Of a stretch of DNA of 64,000 nt, positions 24,065-29,848 are shown piece by piece. The notes beneath the pieces were generated by a model. The model searched no databases. It saw only the letters and a list, made by a program, of their open reading frames with translations, and was not told where the DNA came from. The first letter of the stretch is position 1; each line of letters opens with the position of its first letter. The stretch is from Gammaproteobacteria bacterium (GTDB lineage: Bacteria > Pseudomonadota > Gammaproteobacteria > Pseudomonadales > Azotimanducaceae). Both the position numbers and the translations under genes were made by a program. The DNA lies in NCBI GenBank assembly GCA_021773565.1, contig JAJFJZ010000025.1, positions 356,827 to 420,826 on the forward strand. Reading direction: 5' to 3'.

Positions 24065-26131
24065 ATGAAGCACAGGATCAAGACAAATTGTCCCAGAGAT
24101 TGTTATGACGGCTGTGGCATCGTTGTCGAAAAACGAGATCACGGCAAACACCGGATATTAGGTGATCCCGACCACCCGGTTTCGCGCGGCAAACTCTGTA
24201 GCAAGTGTGCCGTTGCCTACAACGGCGTGTGGCAGGACCCCAAAGCACGATTGCAACAGCCCTTGCGACGGATTGGCGCAAAAGGCTTGCAAGAATTTGA
24301 ACCCATTTCCTGGGATGACGCGCTGGCAGCCATAGCAGAGAAAATGCAGCATGCCATCGATTCCCACGGTGCTTCCGCAATTCTGCACACGCACTACTCG
24401 GGTACGCTGTCGTTGCTCGGCTATTTTTTTCCCAATCGCTTGTTTAATTACCTCGGTGCCTCTGAAGTGGATCCCGACACCATCTGCAACGCCGCAGGTC
24501 ATGTCGCCTGGCACCTGTTGTTTGGCAACTCAATCGCGGGTTTCGATCCACGCACCATAAAAGATGCTAATTGCGTACTTGTGTGGGGCGCCAATCCATC
24601 TCATTCTGCACCTCACGCCCATGAACACTGGCTCGGCAATGCCACAGGTAACGTCATTGTAGTCGATCCGATTCTAACAGAGACAGCTGCATCTGCGGAT
24701 CTGCACCTGCAACCGCGCCCCGGCACGGATGCCGCCCTGGCGTTCTGCCTGCTCCACTGTTTGCAACGCGATGGCCATTTTGATGAGGCGTATATTAACG
24801 CCCATACCATCGGCTTTACAGAAATCAGCGCCGATATTGCCCAAGCCACGCCCGCCTGGGGTGAAGAAAAAACCGGCGTTGCAGCCGGCGATATCGAGCG
24901 AGCAGCCACTATTTATGGACGGGGTCCATCCCTGCTTTGGTGCGGACAGGGCCTACAGCGGCAGGCAACCGGCGGCAATGTCATGCGTGCGGTGGGTTTA
25001 CTTCCCGCACTGACCGGCAATATCGGTAAAGCAGGCGCAGGTTTTTATTATCTCAACATCACACCTATACTGGCTGGAATCGATCTGGATTGGCTGGGCG
25101 GCGGACATATCGCCAAAAAAGGGGGTAAGACGGTTAGCCACATGAAGCTGGCGGAACGCCTCTCTGATCCGGAAGAGTTCAACGTTTTCTTCTCCTGGAA
25201 CACCAATCCGCTTGCTTCTGCACCCGAACAAAAAAAGTTGCGCAAGGCACTCCAGCGTGAAGATCTTTTCTCGGTGGTTTGCGATGTTTTCATGACTGAT
25301 ACGGCAAGTTATGCGGATATCGTATTGCCTGCGGCCAGTTTTCTGGAGTACGACGACCTGACCTTCAGCTATTTTCATTTGCACATGGGTGCGCAAGCCA
25401 AAATTTCTGATCCTATGGGCAATTCCTTGCCGAATGCCGAGATCTTTCGTCGGCTAGCTAAAGCGTTGAAACTTGATGAACCCGCACTGTTTGAAACCGA
25501 TCAGGAAATAATTTCCACCCTGATGGAACAAATGAATACCGGCATGAGTTTCGATGATCTAAAAAAACGCGGCTATTTCGCACTCACCGCTGATCCTATG
25601 TTGATGTTTGCCGAGCAGGATTTTGGTACACCCAGCGGTAAAATTGAAATCGCCTCGGAGCAAGCCATTGCTTTGGGTCTGCCGCGCACGCCCCAGCCCT
25701 GGGCGGATGCCCCGTCTCAAAACGGTAACCTGCGGTTTTTGACTCCTGCATCGAAATGGCGGCTGAACGATTCCTACGCCAATGACCCCCACCTTATTGA
25801 ACAGTCAGGCACGGCATTGCTCCACATGAATCCTGCTGATGCCAGCAGACTGGATATCGCAGAAAATGACCTGGTAACCGTCGCCAATGAAACAGGATCA
25901 ATTGAGCTCACTACGCATATTGACGATAGCGTGTTGCCCGGCACGGTTCTCTCGTACAAGGGACGTTGGCCGCTGGTTGAGGGCTCGCAAACTAACGTGA
26001 ATTTTCTACACACAGCACGTATGGCAGACATGGGTGAAAGCACCAGTGTGCACTCGACAGAGGTTGGGGTCAGAGTAAAGTGCCAGAGTAAACCAGGATC
26101 AGGTTGGGGTCAGAGTAAAGTGCCGGAGTAA
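24065..26131 (+). CDS. Molybdopterin-dependent oxidoreductase (FdhA/DMSO-reductase superfamily) with a REP-derived C-terminus
   Basis: 688 aa. N-terminal [4Fe-4S] motif (CPRDCYDGC, then RGKLCSKC) followed by the molybdopterin oxidoreductase domain (VWGANPSHSAPH, LLWCGQGLQRQ, SWNTNPLASAP, MTDTASYADIVLP) and the MopB C-terminal dinucleotide-binding domain from about residue 545. There is no Tat signal, so it is cytoplasmic; FdhF/assimilatory-like relatives oxidise or reduce small substrates, not defined here. The native family sequence ends near residue 666 (GESTSVHSTE). The remaining 22 residues (beginning VGVRVKCQSK) and the stop codon are read from two 40-bp REP units, so the original stop has been overwritten. 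Confidence 0.9.
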   Translation: MKHRIKTNCPRDCYDGCGIVVEKRDHGKHRILGDPDHPVSRGKLCSKCAVAYNGVWQDPKARLQQPLRRIGAKGLQEFEPISWDDALAAIAEKMQHAIDSHGASAILHTHYSGTLSLLGYFFPNRLFNYLGASEVDPDTICNAAGHVAWHLLFGNSIAGFDPRTIKDANCVLVWGANPSHSAPHAHEHWLGNATGNVIVVDPILTETAASADLHLQPRPGTDAALAFCLLHCLQRDGHFDEAYINAHTIGFTEISADIAQATPAWGEEKTGVAAGDIERAATIYGRGPSLLWCGQGLQRQATGGNVMRAVGLLPALTGNIGKAGAGFYYLNITPILAGIDLDWLGGGHIAKKGGKTVSHMKLAERLSDPEEFNVFFSWNTNPLASAPEQKKLRKALQREDLFSVVCDVFMTDTASYADIVLPAASFLEYDDLTFSYFHLHMGAQAKISDPMGNSLPNAEIFRRLAKALKLDEPALFETDQEIISTLMEQMNTGMSFDDLKKRGYFALTADPMLMFAEQDFGTPSGKIEIASEQAIALGLPRTPQPWADAPSQNGNLRFLTPASKWRLNDSYANDPHLIEQSGTALLHMNPADASRLDIAENDLVTVANETGSIELTTHIDDSVLPGTVLSYKGRWPLVEGSQTNVNFLHTARMADMGESTSVHSTEVGVRVKCQSKPGSGWGQSKVPE

Positions 26132-26180
26132 ACATGGTTCAGGTTGGGGTCAGAGTAAAGTGTCGGAGTAAACTGGATTC
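26061..26180 (+). repeat. Three tandem 40-bp REP units
   Basis: Three head-to-tail units start at 26061, 26101 and 26141. Each begins AGGTTGGGGTCAGAGTAAAG, continues TG[C/T]C[A/G]GAGTAAAC and ends in a variable 8-nt tail. Spacing is exactly 40 bp. They lie at the 3' side of the RAYT gene and the first two are translated as the end of the molybdoenzyme. Confidence 0.9.
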
Positions 26181-26823
26181 ATCTCCTCATTGAAGTTACT
26201 TGTTCCCTGAAAGTTTCCGTTCCCAGCACCAACCCTGTATTGATGCAGTGACGAATTTTAGCAATGGCTTCTACCGATAAAGAATCGCTGACGAGAGCTC
26301 TGTAACCAGACTGCCGCTGTTTGTCGCTTGATCCCAGTGACGTGTAGATTACATGCGGCGTCCACATATATGCCCGGTGACCAAACGCGTGAGATCGGTA
26401 GCTGGACCATTTGTAATCTCCCGGATCTTTTACGACGCCAGCTCTAACAGGGTTGAGTTCGATATACTGCAGACAGTTGAGTAAGTACTGCGAACTCTGC
26501 ACCACTGAAGATTTGAAGCGTCCATCAAACAGAGTACCGGTTCGTGTGTACCGGTAGTTAAACTGTCTAACGTAAAGTCTACCGATGTACTGCATAAGGA
26601 GGGAAACCCCATTGTCTATGTGAGGCGTCAGTAGTAGATGCACATGATTGGTCATAAACACCCAGGCATGTATTGATACCTGATACTTTGCCGCGCCCTC
26701 AGCGAGCCAGTGTGCATAGGCCGCGATATCAGCTTCGCAGGTAAAACACGCCTGGCGGTTATTTCCTCGATGCACGATATGAACGGGGTACTCGGTCGGA
26801 CAAAATCGGGGAAGGCGAGGCAT
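26179..26823 (-). mobile_element. REP-associated tyrosine transposase (RAYT, Y1_Tnp/IS200-like)
   Basis: 214 aa single-strand-specific HUH transposase domesticated to mobilise REP sequences. The metal-binding HUH motif is MTNHVHLLL, the catalytic tyrosine is in LQYIELNPVRAG, and the N-terminal PRLPRFCPTEYPVHIVHRGNNR is typical of the RAYT group. Its 3' end abuts the third REP unit, and an inverted REP unit lies about 100 nt beyond its 5' end, the usual RAYT-REP arrangement. The frame is complete, so the element may be active. It sits between the molybdoenzyme and the HMA-thioredoxin gene. Confidence 0.93.
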
Positions 26824-26919
26824 CGTATGGACTGCATGATCGGGAGTTTGTATTGTGAGTGTGTAGTGAGGATATGTGAGAGGATTATGACGTCAACGGG
26901 CGTGTGAGAATGCTGTACG

Positions 26920-27645
26920 TCAGTGGGTTTTACTCTGGCACTTTACTCTGACCCCATAACTGGGCACCTCACGCAAGTCTCTAATTAGAGGCTCTCGATC
27001 AATTGGCCCCGCGTGGCGATACATTTCCTCACCGCTGGAATTCAACACAAGCAGAGTGGGTAACCCCACTACGTTGAAGTATTTTCCGATGGAAGGATAT
27101 TCGTCGGTATCAATCTTTAATACAACATAGCCAGATAACAGTGTTTTAACATCGGGATCGCTTAAAGTTGTTTCTTCAAGTTGCTTACAGGCGCCGCACC
27201 AGGGCGCATAAAAGTCGATGAATACGAATTGTCCTCTTTCCCCTGCTTCACGAAGTGCAACAGATACAAGATCGGCAAGCTGCGTTGATTTCACCGGAGA
27301 ATCGAGCTTGGCATCACTTGCCACTATAAATGGCCGATAGCCAAGCTCAATAATGGATGCACGCATCTCGTCCGAGTGCACCTTTGTAGCGTCGTAGTTT
27401 ACCGTGAATCTATCTGTAGCAAGATCAATATCAACACTATTTACACCTGCCAGCTCTAACAGAGCGGCTTCGACCGAATTCGGTCAGCTCATTCAGGTGG
27501 CGCCGCTTTTACTCTTCATCATGCCGTCTACAACAATGCTAACACTGGATAAGCTCTGCTTGAGGGCATCGCCATAGGCGCTCATTGAAAACAACATTGC
27601 GATAATGCCAACTCCAGCCAGTAACTTCTTAACATCGAATATCAT
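26920..27645 (-). CDS. Putative selenoprotein: MerP/HMA-like UxxU domain fused to thioredoxin
   Basis: One minus-strand frame of 241 codons with two in-frame UGA codons (27495-27493, codon 51; 27486-27484, codon 54). Residues 1-25 are a signal or membrane segment. Residues about 33-100 are a heavy-metal-associated domain (VSIVVDGM, PNSVEAALLELAGV, VDIDLATDRFTVNYD) in which the UGAs replace both cysteines of CxxC, giving U-M-S-U. Residues about 112-228 are a thioredoxin domain with FYAPWCGACK (Cys150, Cys153) and a cis-Pro in VGLPTLLV, resembling DsbD's C-terminal domain. It is likely exported, binding and/or reducing a soft metal such as Hg(II). Residues 231-241 (GVRVKCQSKTH) and the stop come from a REP unit. 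ATG 27645 is about 20 nt downstream of a MerR-type promoter start. If UGA were a true stop, only a GTG-started thioredoxin piece (27381) would remain. NCBI families for HMA-domain (seleno)proteins exist, as I recall. Confidence 0.82.
26921..26960 (-). repeat. Inverted REP unit at the end of the HMA-thioredoxin gene
   Basis: The complement of this segment contains GTTATGGGGTCAGAGTAAAG followed by TGCCAGAGTAAAACCCACTG, the same core as the 26061 array in opposite orientation. It provides the last 11 codons and the TGA stop of the thioredoxin domain. Confidence 0.9.
27449..27468 (-). promoter_or_regulatory. Candidate bacterial SECIS stem-loop
   Basis: On the transcript, GCC-GCUCU-[GUU]-AGAGC-U-GGC folds into a 5-bp upper stem plus a 3-bp lower stem with one bulged U and a three-nt apical loop starting with G. 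The loop begins 24 nt after the second UGA and 33 nt after the first, both inside the 16-37 nt window I recall for bacterial SECIS models. A bulged U plus a G/U loop is what SelB recognises in fdhF, though here the bulge is on the 3' side. A nearer palindrome (GACCGAATTCGGTC) overlaps the second UGA and could compete. Confidence 0.6.
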
Positions 27646-27671
27646 CAGGATACCTACTCAATATTTCTTCT

Positions 27672-27702
27672 ATTCTATTTCCTGTAGCAGCTACAGGTGC
27701 AA
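27672..27702 (-). promoter_or_regulatory. MerR-type promoter of the HMA-thioredoxin selenoprotein gene
   Basis: Minus strand: -35 TTGCAC (27702-27697), a 19-bp spacer, -10 TAGAAT (27677-27672). The spacer contains the perfect dyad CTGTAG-CTG-CTACAG (27682-27696). A 19-bp spacer with a central dyad is the hallmark of promoters activated by MerR-family DNA distortion. Transcription would start near 27665, about 20 nt before the ATG. It lies just after the merR-like stop codon. Confidence 0.85.
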
Positions 27703-27706
27703 GACT

Positions 27707-28111
27707 TTAATGCTCCTGTAATGCTTCAATAATCGGGCATTCAGGTATGTCCTTACCAGAACATTGCCTGGATAGTTCGCTAAGTGTTTTTTCCATTTTG
27801 CGCAGATCACCAATTTTCGCGTGAATGTCAGCAAGATGGGTATCTGCAAGTTGTTTTACCTGTTCGCAGGATACTTGTTCTCCGTCAACTACGGCTAACA
27901 AGCCTCTGATTTCTTGCATGGAAAAACCAAGTTCCCTGCTTCTGCGGATAAACACCAATCGTTCAACCAGCTCGCAACTAAAAAGCCTGTGACCCGCCGC
28001 ACTGCGGTCGGGTGACGGTAACAATCCCTCCTTTTCGTAGTAACGAATGGTTTCTATGTGGCACCCCGTTCGTTGGGCCACCTTGCCTATTGTCTGGCGA
28101 TCTGACGGCAT
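27707..28111 (-). CDS. MerR-family Hg(II)/soft-metal-responsive regulator
   Basis: 134 aa from ATG 28111, which has AGAGGA 8 nt upstream; the longer open frame to 28189 would run through the operator and is rejected. Residues 4-73 are the winged HTH (TIGKVAQRTGCHIETIRYYEK, split by family positions; GLLPSP, RSRELGFS). The metal-binding cysteines of mercury MerR are conserved: one at the start of the dimerisation helix (VSCEQV) and two near the C-terminus (QCSGKDIPECP, seven residues between them; eight in Tn501 MerR, as I recall). It sits between two promoters carrying the same CTGTAG-N3-CTACAG dyad with 19-bp spacers and probably activates both on metal binding. Confidence 0.9.
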   Translation of the reverse strand: MPSDRQTIGKVAQRTGCHIETIRYYEKEGLLPSPDRSAAGHRLFSCELVERLVFIRRSRELGFSMQEIRGLLAVVDGEQVSCEQVKQLADTHLADIHAKIGDLRKMEKTLSELSRQCSGKDIPECPIIEALQEH

Positions 28112-28124
28112 ATCCGAATTCCTC

Positions 28125-28155
28125 TTGCACCTGTAGTGACTACAGATATTACTAT
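28125..28155 (+). promoter_or_regulatory. MerR-type promoter of the GDCCVxC operon (leaderless)
   Basis: Plus strand: -35 TTGCAC (28125-28130), a 19-bp spacer (28131-28149) containing the perfect dyad CTGTAG-TGA-CTACAG (28131-28145), and -10 TACTAT (28150-28155). The expected start point is near 28162, the A of the first ATG, so the mRNA is probably leaderless, consistent with the lack of any Shine-Dalgarno. The dyad and the -35 are identical to those of the selenoprotein gene promoter. Confidence 0.85.
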
Positions 28156-28161
28156 AGAAAA

Positions 28162-28386
28162 ATGAGTGAAGTAATCCAGCATTCGACAATTACATGCCCA
28201 AACTGCGGGCATATCGAAAAAGAAGTGATGCCTACCGATGCCTGCCAGTTCTATTACGACTGCAAGGGCTGTACTGAATTGCTCCGCCCTCTACCAGGAG
28301 ACTGTTGTGTGTACTGTTCTTTTGGCGACGTCGCATGTCCTCCCATCCAGCAGGGAGACGAACGTAGTCAACGGATACCTCGATGA
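28162..28386 (+). CDS. GDCCVxC-motif small zinc-ribbon-like protein
   Basis: 74 aa with nine cysteines: CPNC near the N-terminus, CxxC (CKGC) in the middle, and the signature PGDCCVYCSFGDVACPP. This is the GDCCVxC family, which I recall as having members with selenocysteine in the last Cys position and as often adjoining mercury-resistance genes; here all positions are Cys. It is likely a cytoplasmic soft-metal-binding or redox protein. The ATG at 28162 sits at the predicted transcription start. The stop overlaps the next gene (ATGA), so it heads a three-gene coupled operon under the MerR-type promoter. Confidence 0.85.
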   Translation: MSEVIQHSTITCPNCGHIEKEVMPTDACQFYYDCKGCTELLRPLPGDCCVYCSFGDVACPPIQQGDERSQRIPR

Positions 28387-29309
28387 ACTCACACAGCAAC
28401 AACACCTATTGGATTAAATTGGCTTCGCGCAGCAAACGCCTGCTATCAATTGTTGTCTGCACAATCCTGGCTTCGTGTAGTTCAGGTGACAACCAAAACA
28501 TTAATAGTCTTGTTTTCAGCTTTGAGCGAAATGCAATTCTTGTAAAGCTGATGTTGAATCAGGAAGGACCTTTCAACCTGCTCGTAGATACTGGATCGGA
28601 TCCGTCCGTAGTAGACAGTTCCCTGGCTGAAGAACTGACCTGGCCCACAATACCCATTGGGTCCCAGGGTAGCGGCGCAGGCAATCAATCCGCTGATATA
28701 TACCTCCTACCCCCATTGAAGGTTCAGTTCGGTACGCCGTCGCCTGAAAGAAAATTATTTCTGGGTGTTGATCTGACCGGTATTAGCGAGCGTCTTGGGC
28801 AACCGGTGCATGGCATACTGGGGTACAACGTGTTAGCCGGGAAACGAGTTGTCGTTGATTTTCCAAATAGACAAATCAGCTTTGGGCTAATCGAAGACCG
28901 CGCACTAACCGGTTTGTCTCTGCCGATGGTCATTAATCCAGACGATCCCATGCCCTTCGTACAAGGTCTTTTGTCAATTAATGGCATTGCCGTCAGCACT
29001 TCCGTAGACACCGGTTTCAACGGTGGCGTACTACTCACACCGGGTGGATTGCAACGACTCGGCTTTACACCAAATACCCTGGATAAATGTACGGAAACCA
29101 TAGGTTACGGAGGTGCCGTACCACGATGCGCAGTGAGGCTTGAAAGCGTTCGACTTGGTGGTCAAAAAACAAATATTACAGAGGCATTTTACGATCCAAG
29201 CCTGAACACAAATCCCGGCGAGGCCGAAGCCAGGCTCGGCAACTCACTGTTATCAGAATTTGTCCTTGTATTTGATTATCCAAACAAGCAACTGGAGGTT
29301 TCACAATGA
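28383..29309 (+). CDS. Lipoprotein retropepsin-like aspartyl protease
   Basis: 308 aa. A basic N-terminus and hydrophobic segment end in the lipobox ILAS|C (Cys32), so this is a lipid-anchored envelope protein. Two pepsin/retropepsin-like DTG motifs are present (LLVDTGSDPSVV, Asp69; TSVDTGFNGGVL, Asp209), each followed by hydrophobic strands, so a single chain could supply both halves of an aspartic-protease active site. The start ATG overlaps the previous stop (ATGA) and its own stop overlaps the next start the same way. Co-regulation with a metal-responsive regulon is unexpected for a protease; it may process or quality-control envelope proteins damaged by metal. Confidence 0.8.
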   Translation: MNSHSNNTYWIKLASRSKRLLSIVVCTILASCSSGDNQNINSLVFSFERNAILVKLMLNQEGPFNLLVDTGSDPSVVDSSLAEELTWPTIPIGSQGSGAGNQSADIYLLPPLKVQFGTPSPERKLFLGVDLTGISERLGQPVHGILGYNVLAGKRVVVDFPNRQISFGLIEDRALTGLSLPMVINPDDPMPFVQGLLSINGIAVSTSVDTGFNGGVLLTPGGLQRLGFTPNTLDKCTETIGYGGAVPRCAVRLESVRLGGQKTNITEAFYDPSLNTNPGEAEARLGNSLLSEFVLVFDYPNKQLEVSQ

Positions 29310-29848
29310 AACAAACAGACTCACTTGAACTCGTTGCAGCCGGATCGCTTAAGCGACCAGGACCCATTGGAAGATTGGTACGATTGTCACTGGGCGTATT
29401 CTGCTTATACGCCTTTTATGAACTTTACTATTATCTGGAACAGACAACGACACAACCTCTTTCGTCGCTGGATAACCGGGTCCTGTTACTACTTGGACCA
29501 CTCTGCCTATTCAACTACGTTGTGAACATTGGCTTCACAAAAAACTGGGGGCAACTTCCGCTTATCATCTCACTTGCCGTGCTTGTATTATCAGCCGGCG
29601 CCGCATACCTGGTGTCCGGAAGTTTCGACAGCCCGATTTTTGGTGTTCCACTCAACCTGTGGTTCGCGTATTTCTACGGGCACCTGGGAGTTTCATTCGT
29701 ACTGGCTGCGATAATTGCTACACCCGGCTGTGAGATGCGGTCTATTCCGGAATTAATCGGCAAGGCTCGCGGAACTGTTTCGAATGAACACCACTGTCCT
29801 GTCGGGTTTATAACCGGGATCGACGAGTGGGAGCACGGTCGGACATAA
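29306..29848 (+). CDS. Multi-pass membrane protein with Cys/His tail, third gene of the MerR-controlled operon
   Basis: 180 aa. Four to five hydrophobic segments (about 28-46, 58-75, 84-103, 118-140) follow a short cytoplasmic N-terminus. A conserved-looking tail contains TPGCEMRSIPEL and, 20 residues on, HHCPVGF. The Cys-Glu-Met and His-His-Cys groups are plausible soft-metal ligands. Size and topology recall small metal-transport proteins such as MerC/MerT, but I do not see their family motifs, so no function is assigned. The start overlaps the protease stop (ATGA), implying coupled translation. A perfect REP hairpin follows three nt after the stop. Confidence 0.65.
   Translation: MKQTDSLELVAAGSLKRPGPIGRLVRLSLGVFCLYAFYELYYYLEQTTTQPLSSLDNRVLLLLGPLCLFNYVVNIGFTKNWGQLPLIISLAVLVLSAGAAYLVSGSFDSPIFGVPLNLWFAYFYGHLGVSFVLAAIIATPGCEMRSIPELIGKARGTVSNEHHCPVGFITGIDEWEHGRT

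Follow-up and report, generated by a model that had tools for sequence, protein, structure and literature searches.

Are two in-frame UGA codons in a short gammaproteobacterial gene stop signals, or do they encode selenocysteine (Sec) in a metal-binding site and, if so, for which metal? This question is raised by a minus-strand frame within a 64,000-nucleotide stretch of an Azotimanducaceae genome (contig JAJFJZ010000025.1, positions 356,827 to 420,826, assembly GCA_021773565.1; hereafter the window), for which the original prediction proposed a selenoprotein with a MerP-like, UxxU-bearing HMA domain fused to a CGAC thioredoxin. Pfam matches, UGAs kept in homologues and the Sec genes of the host support that proposal, and a putative mercury regulon, absent from the first account, can be added to it. 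We consider it probable that the gene encodes an exported protein whose HMA half captures periplasmic Hg(II), which is kept reduced by its own thioredoxin half and which stands under the control of a MerR-family regulator.

Translation confirmed a single frame of 241 residues, interrupted only by UGA codons 51 and 54 (U51, U54); neither TAA nor TAG occurs in it, and its terminator is a third UGA (26920-26922). Conventional gene finding recovers just the truncated thioredoxin, as had been foreseen: standard open reading frame (ORF) calling gave only 26920-27381 (153 amino acids, GTG start), the database protein of the same contig (P0003) is truncated as well (148 amino acids), and many database relatives begin downstream of the UGAs, so that the metal domain is lost in ordinary annotation. 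Both expected domains scored above their gathering cut-offs when Cys was substituted for Sec, i.e., HMA (PF00403, residues 46-103, 50.4 bits versus 24.8, E 3e-13) and thioredoxin (PF00085, residues 139-224, 50.3 bits versus 23.5, E 2.6e-13). The HMA match upholds the placing of UxxU in an HMA-type motif; the simple form of that motif needed correcting, as a conserved loop insertion of 7-8 residues precedes UxxU (GMMKSKSGATUMSUP). Within the thioredoxin half, W149, C150, C153 and P196 (presumably the cis-Pro position of thioredoxins) are invariant in 24 sequences. A putative N-terminal signal segment was recognized by eye, together with a predicted helix at residues 5-31.

Ten intact loci were available for comparison: the window copy, its paralogue L054 (58% identity) from the same genome, and eight loci in seven other genomes, six of them from the same family (L017, L018, L019, L020, L021 and L070, with L019 and L020 representing one isolate) and two from Planctomycetota (L022 and L023). 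Both UGAs are in register in all ten, none of which carries a further internal UGA; they are conserved, and the two-UGA frame is therefore not a product of chance. The residues between the UGAs differ by locus (UMSU, UMNU, UMAU, ULTU, ULGU), hence the motif is not one copied stretch. Five of the 26 matches found in a database search span the motif, and all five show W..W there, which is probably what a gene caller reading UGA as Trp would write. The ratio of nonsynonymous to synonymous substitution rates (dN/dS) was 0.17 for L017/L018 (dS 0.74) and 0.70 for L022/L023, most of the remaining pairs being near or beyond synonymous saturation. The gene is rare, since only one of the 369 genomes in a class-level sample (that of the window) gave a match at E<=1e-20; within the family, nine of 206 genomes matched at E<=1e-14 (six with eight intact copies, three with decayed remnants). 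A plasmid tblastn search yielded 90 records, each with less than 80% of the query covered, and the annotated entries among the 15 rows shown were DsbD.

The homologue alignment thus retained both UGAs but did not display the exchange of Cys and Sec that had been anticipated. No Cys form of the fusion was seen among the 26 database matches, nor in a wider word-based search, where the best 7997 word-sharing candidates were scored and 45 matches obtained; no HMA stands in the Pfam column of the new rows, a part of whose sequences was inspected. The HMA half alone, used as a query, retrieved a single match at E<=1e-8, an ordinary CxxC HMA protein. As no Cys form was found, the case for Sec rests on the conservation of the UGAs and on constraint at the RNA level.

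That constraint is visible in synonymous codon identity, which peaks at codons 51-68: across the ten loci, 307 of 419 comparisons within codons 52-68 were identical, and among 17-codon windows the highest value (0.76, versus a median of 0.37) belongs to the one beginning at codon 51. Unaided RNAalifold folding of the ten loci placed two hairpins within 54 bases from UGA 51, the region of the predicted bacterial Sec insertion sequence (bSECIS). The first (27472-27485) starts inside UGA 54, whereas the second (27453-27465) has a 3-base loop whose first base is G in 10/10 loci, 32 bases after UGA 51 and 23 after UGA 54; the usual bSECIS distance from the UGA is 16-37. Pair counting showed 99% of 100 cells paired (the sole broken one being in L070) and four pairs changed on both sides, a result reached by none of 500 shuffles. 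Folding of the window strand alone was less telling (z of -2.6, -1.6, -1.4 and -2.7 for four stretches), and an Rfam scan over 26800-27800 gave four matches, all below gathering.

The Sec genes needed for such decoding are present in the window genome (G000; 4.23 Mb in 32 contigs, completeness 98%), in which selA, selB and tRNA-Sec adjoin each other on contig C11 and selD, itself carrying one in-frame UGA, was also found; SelB was searched in this genome only. SelD exceeded its cut-off in all eight carriers and tRNA-Sec in seven, while SelA was found in five of the six family carriers. SelA by itself carries little weight, as 176 of the 206 family genomes have it. Several findings point the other way: tRNA-Sec stayed below the cut-off in G627, the genome of L023 (45.4 of 47 bits, SelD present), the intact carrier G048 (73% complete) gave no SelA match although SelD is present, and three relatives of the gene have decayed (G561:C342 (L071), G556:C143 (L072) and G025:C55 (L058)). 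In G561, whose remnant contains the most stops, SelA gave no match and no tRNA-Sec passed the cut-off; this fits dependence on Sec, but as a single case, because both are wholly or partly kept in G556 and G025. If the UGAs were genuine stops, leaving a pseudogene or a pair of ORFs, this could account for the decayed relatives and for the C-terminal residues of the window copy (GVRVKCQSKTH), which derive from a repeat element. Given ten intact loci with only these two internal UGAs, purifying selection, conserved hairpins, the Sec machinery and the coinciding absences in G561, we regard that explanation as highly improbable.

Which metal, then, would a selenoprotein of this kind bind? Between its gene and that of a MerR-family regulator lies a promoter-like site, TTGCAC and TAGAAT separated by 19 bp with the dyad CCTGTAGCTGCTACAGG, and the regulator gene sits between two copies of this operator, the second of which faces a gene of the GDCCVxC family. 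A consensus built from six upstream sites was found with at most three mismatches at seven of the ten intact loci (window, L054, L017, L018, L019, L020 and L021), six of which had supplied the consensus; the L019 site is independent of it, as are the additional sites of the window, L054 and L021; five shuffled and six Markov windows gave no match. A MerR gene stands beside the selenoprotein gene, or within two genes of it, at five of the ten loci (window, L054, L020, L021 and L022). Three Cys residues are invariant in these five regulators and in a set of seven that includes a merP-linked one, and the Cys at residue 76 (first-row numbering), which we take to distinguish sensors of divalent from those of monovalent metals, is kept in all seven.

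The same operator also occurs at merT-merP loci of the family that had no part in the consensus. At L088 it is present with three mismatches, along with MerT (100.9 bits), a MerP with CAACP (72.8 bits) and GDCCVxC (104.1 bits); at L087, with one mismatch, along with a divergent MerR (121.3 bits), a MerT match and a MerP identified by eye; and the best MerT match of all (L086, 116.2 bits) has a site with three mismatches. Near the selenoprotein gene itself, MerT or MerC was found at three of the ten loci: the paralogue L054 has MerC above both cut-offs on the far side of its MerR, L019 carries on a single strand the operator, GDCCVxC (by motif), MerT, a UxxC protein and then the selenoprotein, and L022 carries MerR, a zf_CopZ-MerT-HMA fusion and the selenoprotein; the window copy has neither. 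Judged from sequence, the gene setting and the promoter likely point to mercury handling.

Several observations speak against mercury, or against a MerP-like role. The HMA half reached only 29.5 bits against the MerP model TIGR02052 (cut-off 92.55), and the fusion, with Cys for Sec, 38.6 bits (27.5 in a six-frame genome scan) against NF041115, a model for UxxU metal-binding (seleno)proteins (cut-off 95). For the neighbouring regulators the best model is MerR, yet they do not reach its cut-off, and CadR/PbrR, CueR or ZntR models score nearly as high. The operator is poor at L070 (six mismatches) and the consensus scan found none at L022 and L023; as framed, L023 is also devoid of an N-terminal export segment. 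Co-occurrence with MerT is weak: it is above the cut-off in two of six intact carriers versus four of 200 other genomes (p 0.010), or, at E<=0.001, in two of six versus 16 of 200 (p 0.088), and the window genome has no MerT match. MerA over the cut-off was found in none of nine genomes, the assemblies being incomplete and the merT-merP genomes lying outside this search. Low mer scores are usual here, since those MerT, MerP and MerR proteins of L087 and L088 that were scanned fall under the NCBIfam cut-offs too.

These observations leave room for a selenoprotein as described that would serve as a general soft-metal chaperone for another thiophilic ion, i.e., Cu(I), Ag(I), Cd(II) or Pb(II). The HMA half is matched better by CopZ models than by MerP (50.2 versus 29.5 bits), the models of other metal regulators score near MerR, and at L021 the neighbours are a P-type ATPase and a copper-repressor-like gene. 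We nevertheless consider this unlikely, since MerC is over the cut-off near the paralogue, MerT occurs in L019 and L022, the operator is shared with merT-merP loci, and the presumed mark of divalent-metal sensors, Cys 76, is kept in every compared regulator.

The favoured reading, capture of Hg(II), would imply the following course of events. Both UGAs would be read as Sec, giving a bis-selenol UxxU in the HMA domain; the protein would be exported to the periplasm, where the two selenols could capture Hg(II), its expression being switched on from the operator with the 19-bp spacer by the adjacent MerR-family regulator. The HMA half may substitute for MerP, either trapping Hg(II) or passing it to a MerT/MerC transporter. 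A U-U diselenide forms easily in the periplasm; reducing it would fall to the thioredoxin half, with electrons presumably supplied by a DsbD-type donor. Mercury has a higher affinity for selenium than for sulfur, and toxicology has long been concerned with the antagonism of selenium and mercury; two Sec residues in a MerP-type site with an attached thioredoxin would, if this reading is true, amount to genetically encoded Se-Hg chemistry.

The thioredoxin half allows the UxxU to be viewed differently, as the redox centre of a periplasmic diselenide/disulfide relay acting under metal or oxidative stress. This half resembles DsbD gamma, a periplasmic reductase domain that likewise has a thioredoxin fold (identity to the 1vrs_D and 2fw entries is 32-38% across some 105-110 residues), and differs from it in having CGAC where the DsbD-gamma motif is CVAC, in the absence of the DsbD membrane domain and in the attached HMA domain. 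A Sec pair generally oxidises more readily than a Cys pair, and the selenoprotein gene of L019 is preceded by one for a UxxC protein, found also in L089 and L090, whose thioredoxin-fold matches are weak. With HMA folds serving mainly as metal carriers, and with a mer-type regulon and operator around the gene, a relay seems to us less likely still than the choice of another metal. The VIA match list was occupied by the thioredoxin half and is for that reason uninformative on the HMA half.

More broadly, we consider possible, though somewhat less likely than not, a selenium-based branch of the mer systems: under MerR control, MerP would give way to a bis-selenol trap for Hg(II) that brings its own reductase, accompanied by GDCCVxC and by a ResA/TlpA-like UxxC selenoprotein beside MerT, so that mercury would be sequestered by selenium without MerA. 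The absence of MerA from the nine genomes would fit trapping of Hg rather than its reduction. MerA-like flavoproteins in four carriers (about 380 bits, cut-off 454) were rejected, as their neighbourhood, inspected by eye, contains no mer gene and no operator site.

Compared with MerP (TIGR02052), the fusion shares the HMA fold, the CxxCP-type position (UMSUP versus CAACP), likely export, a regulator of mer type and, at part of the loci, neighbouring transporters; it differs in the predicted Sec in place of Cys, the KSKSG loop insertion and the C-terminal thioredoxin. With NF041115 it shares an HMA-like domain with UxxU, but that model spans 74 positions and lacks a thioredoxin part. NF045683, a model of a MerT/CopZ fusion-like heavy metal transport selenoprotein, likewise contains an HMA half of mercury type, joined there to a MerT-like domain instead of a thioredoxin; the present fusion scores 18.8 of 375 bits against it. 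In the part of a 2026 review covered here (PMC13188914), a table lists NF041115 as 'Metal-binding protein (putative mercuric reductase)' with UxxU and 2 Sec, and a Sec-containing MerT has a row of its own. A table of the 2008 Global Ocean Sampling survey (PMC2398784) has entries for the Sec-containing proteins 'Mercuric transport protein MerP' and 'Putative mercuric transport protein', i.e., mercury-transport-type selenoproteins of marine microbes, which were compared as table rows only; the passages covered contain no thioredoxin fusion of the present kind. According to these passages, Sec-containing MerP and UxxU metal-binding selenoproteins are already in print. No description of an HMA-thioredoxin selenoprotein was found in the portions of the literature searched (PMC13188914, PMC9312934, PMC2398784 and PMC12013277 among it), which is not a claim of its absence from print.

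Table 1. Coordinates of the features discussed (window positions unless a locus is named).
Feature	Position	Strand	Basis
HMA-thioredoxin selenoprotein gene	26920..27645	-	241 codons + UGA stop
UGA codon 51, predicted Sec	27493..27495	-	UGA in 10/10 intact loci
UGA codon 54, predicted Sec	27484..27486	-	UGA in 10/10 intact loci
HMA domain, UxxU replacing CxxC	27337..27510	-	Pfam match
Thioredoxin domain, DsbD-gamma-like; WCGAC at 27187-27201	26974..27231	-	Pfam match + DsbD-gamma matches
Predicted bSECIS region, hairpins 1 + 2	27442..27495	-	RNAalifold + synonymous conservation peak
Predicted MerR-type promoter/operator: TTGCAC, 19 bp with dyad CCTGTAG..CTACAGG, TAGAAT	27672..27702	-	predicted from sequence
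MerR-family regulator, three Cys invariant among compared MerRs	27707..28111	-	TIGR02051 132.9 bits, below cut-off 150.85
Second operator copy, divergent, 2 mismatches to consensus	28125..28155	+	consensus scan
GDCCVxC domain (seleno)protein family gene, Cys form	28162..28386	+	NF041374 101.7 bits, cut-off 40
Aspartyl-protease-like gene; start overlaps GDCCVxC stop; possible operon member	28383..29309	+	PF13650 56.3 bits
Hydrophobic protein, membrane-like by eye; start overlaps previous stop; possible operon member	29306..29848	+	no family over cut-off
REP-associated tyrosine transposase gene, repeat copies around it	26179-26823	-	NF047646 68.7 of 80 bits
UxxC selenoprotein candidates	L019:5373-5948, L090:1824-2426, L089:809-1444	+, +, -	UGA in 3/3

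Among the neighbouring genes (Table 1), the aspartyl-protease-like and hydrophobic ones are possibly part of the same regulon; PADLOC gave no match. The GDCCVxC family, a 'hypothetical protein' row in the part of the review covered (PMC13188914), is linked to mercury-type genes by operator and gene order, its members having been assigned by profile in the window, L088 and L090, and by motif in L054, L019 and L089.

A second candidate family of selenoproteins, the UxxC proteins, is exported-looking, carries VGPTUG[VI]CLRGL and lies next to MerT and GDCCVxC. It has no Pfam or NCBIfam match; a hairpin follows the UGA at 20 bases, with folding no better than that of shuffles (z of -0.1, -0.1 and -1.4), and a low-confidence structural model (predicted local distance difference test score, pLDDT, 66) suggests weak ResA-like/thioredoxin-fold matches.

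Finally, the window contains six copies of GGGGTCAGAGTAAA (at 26066, 26106, 26146, 26942, 29854 and 29909; 0.02 expected), and copies of this repeat supply the C-terminal GVRVKCQSK of both the selenoprotein and a molybdopterin-oxidoreductase-like ORF (24065-26131).
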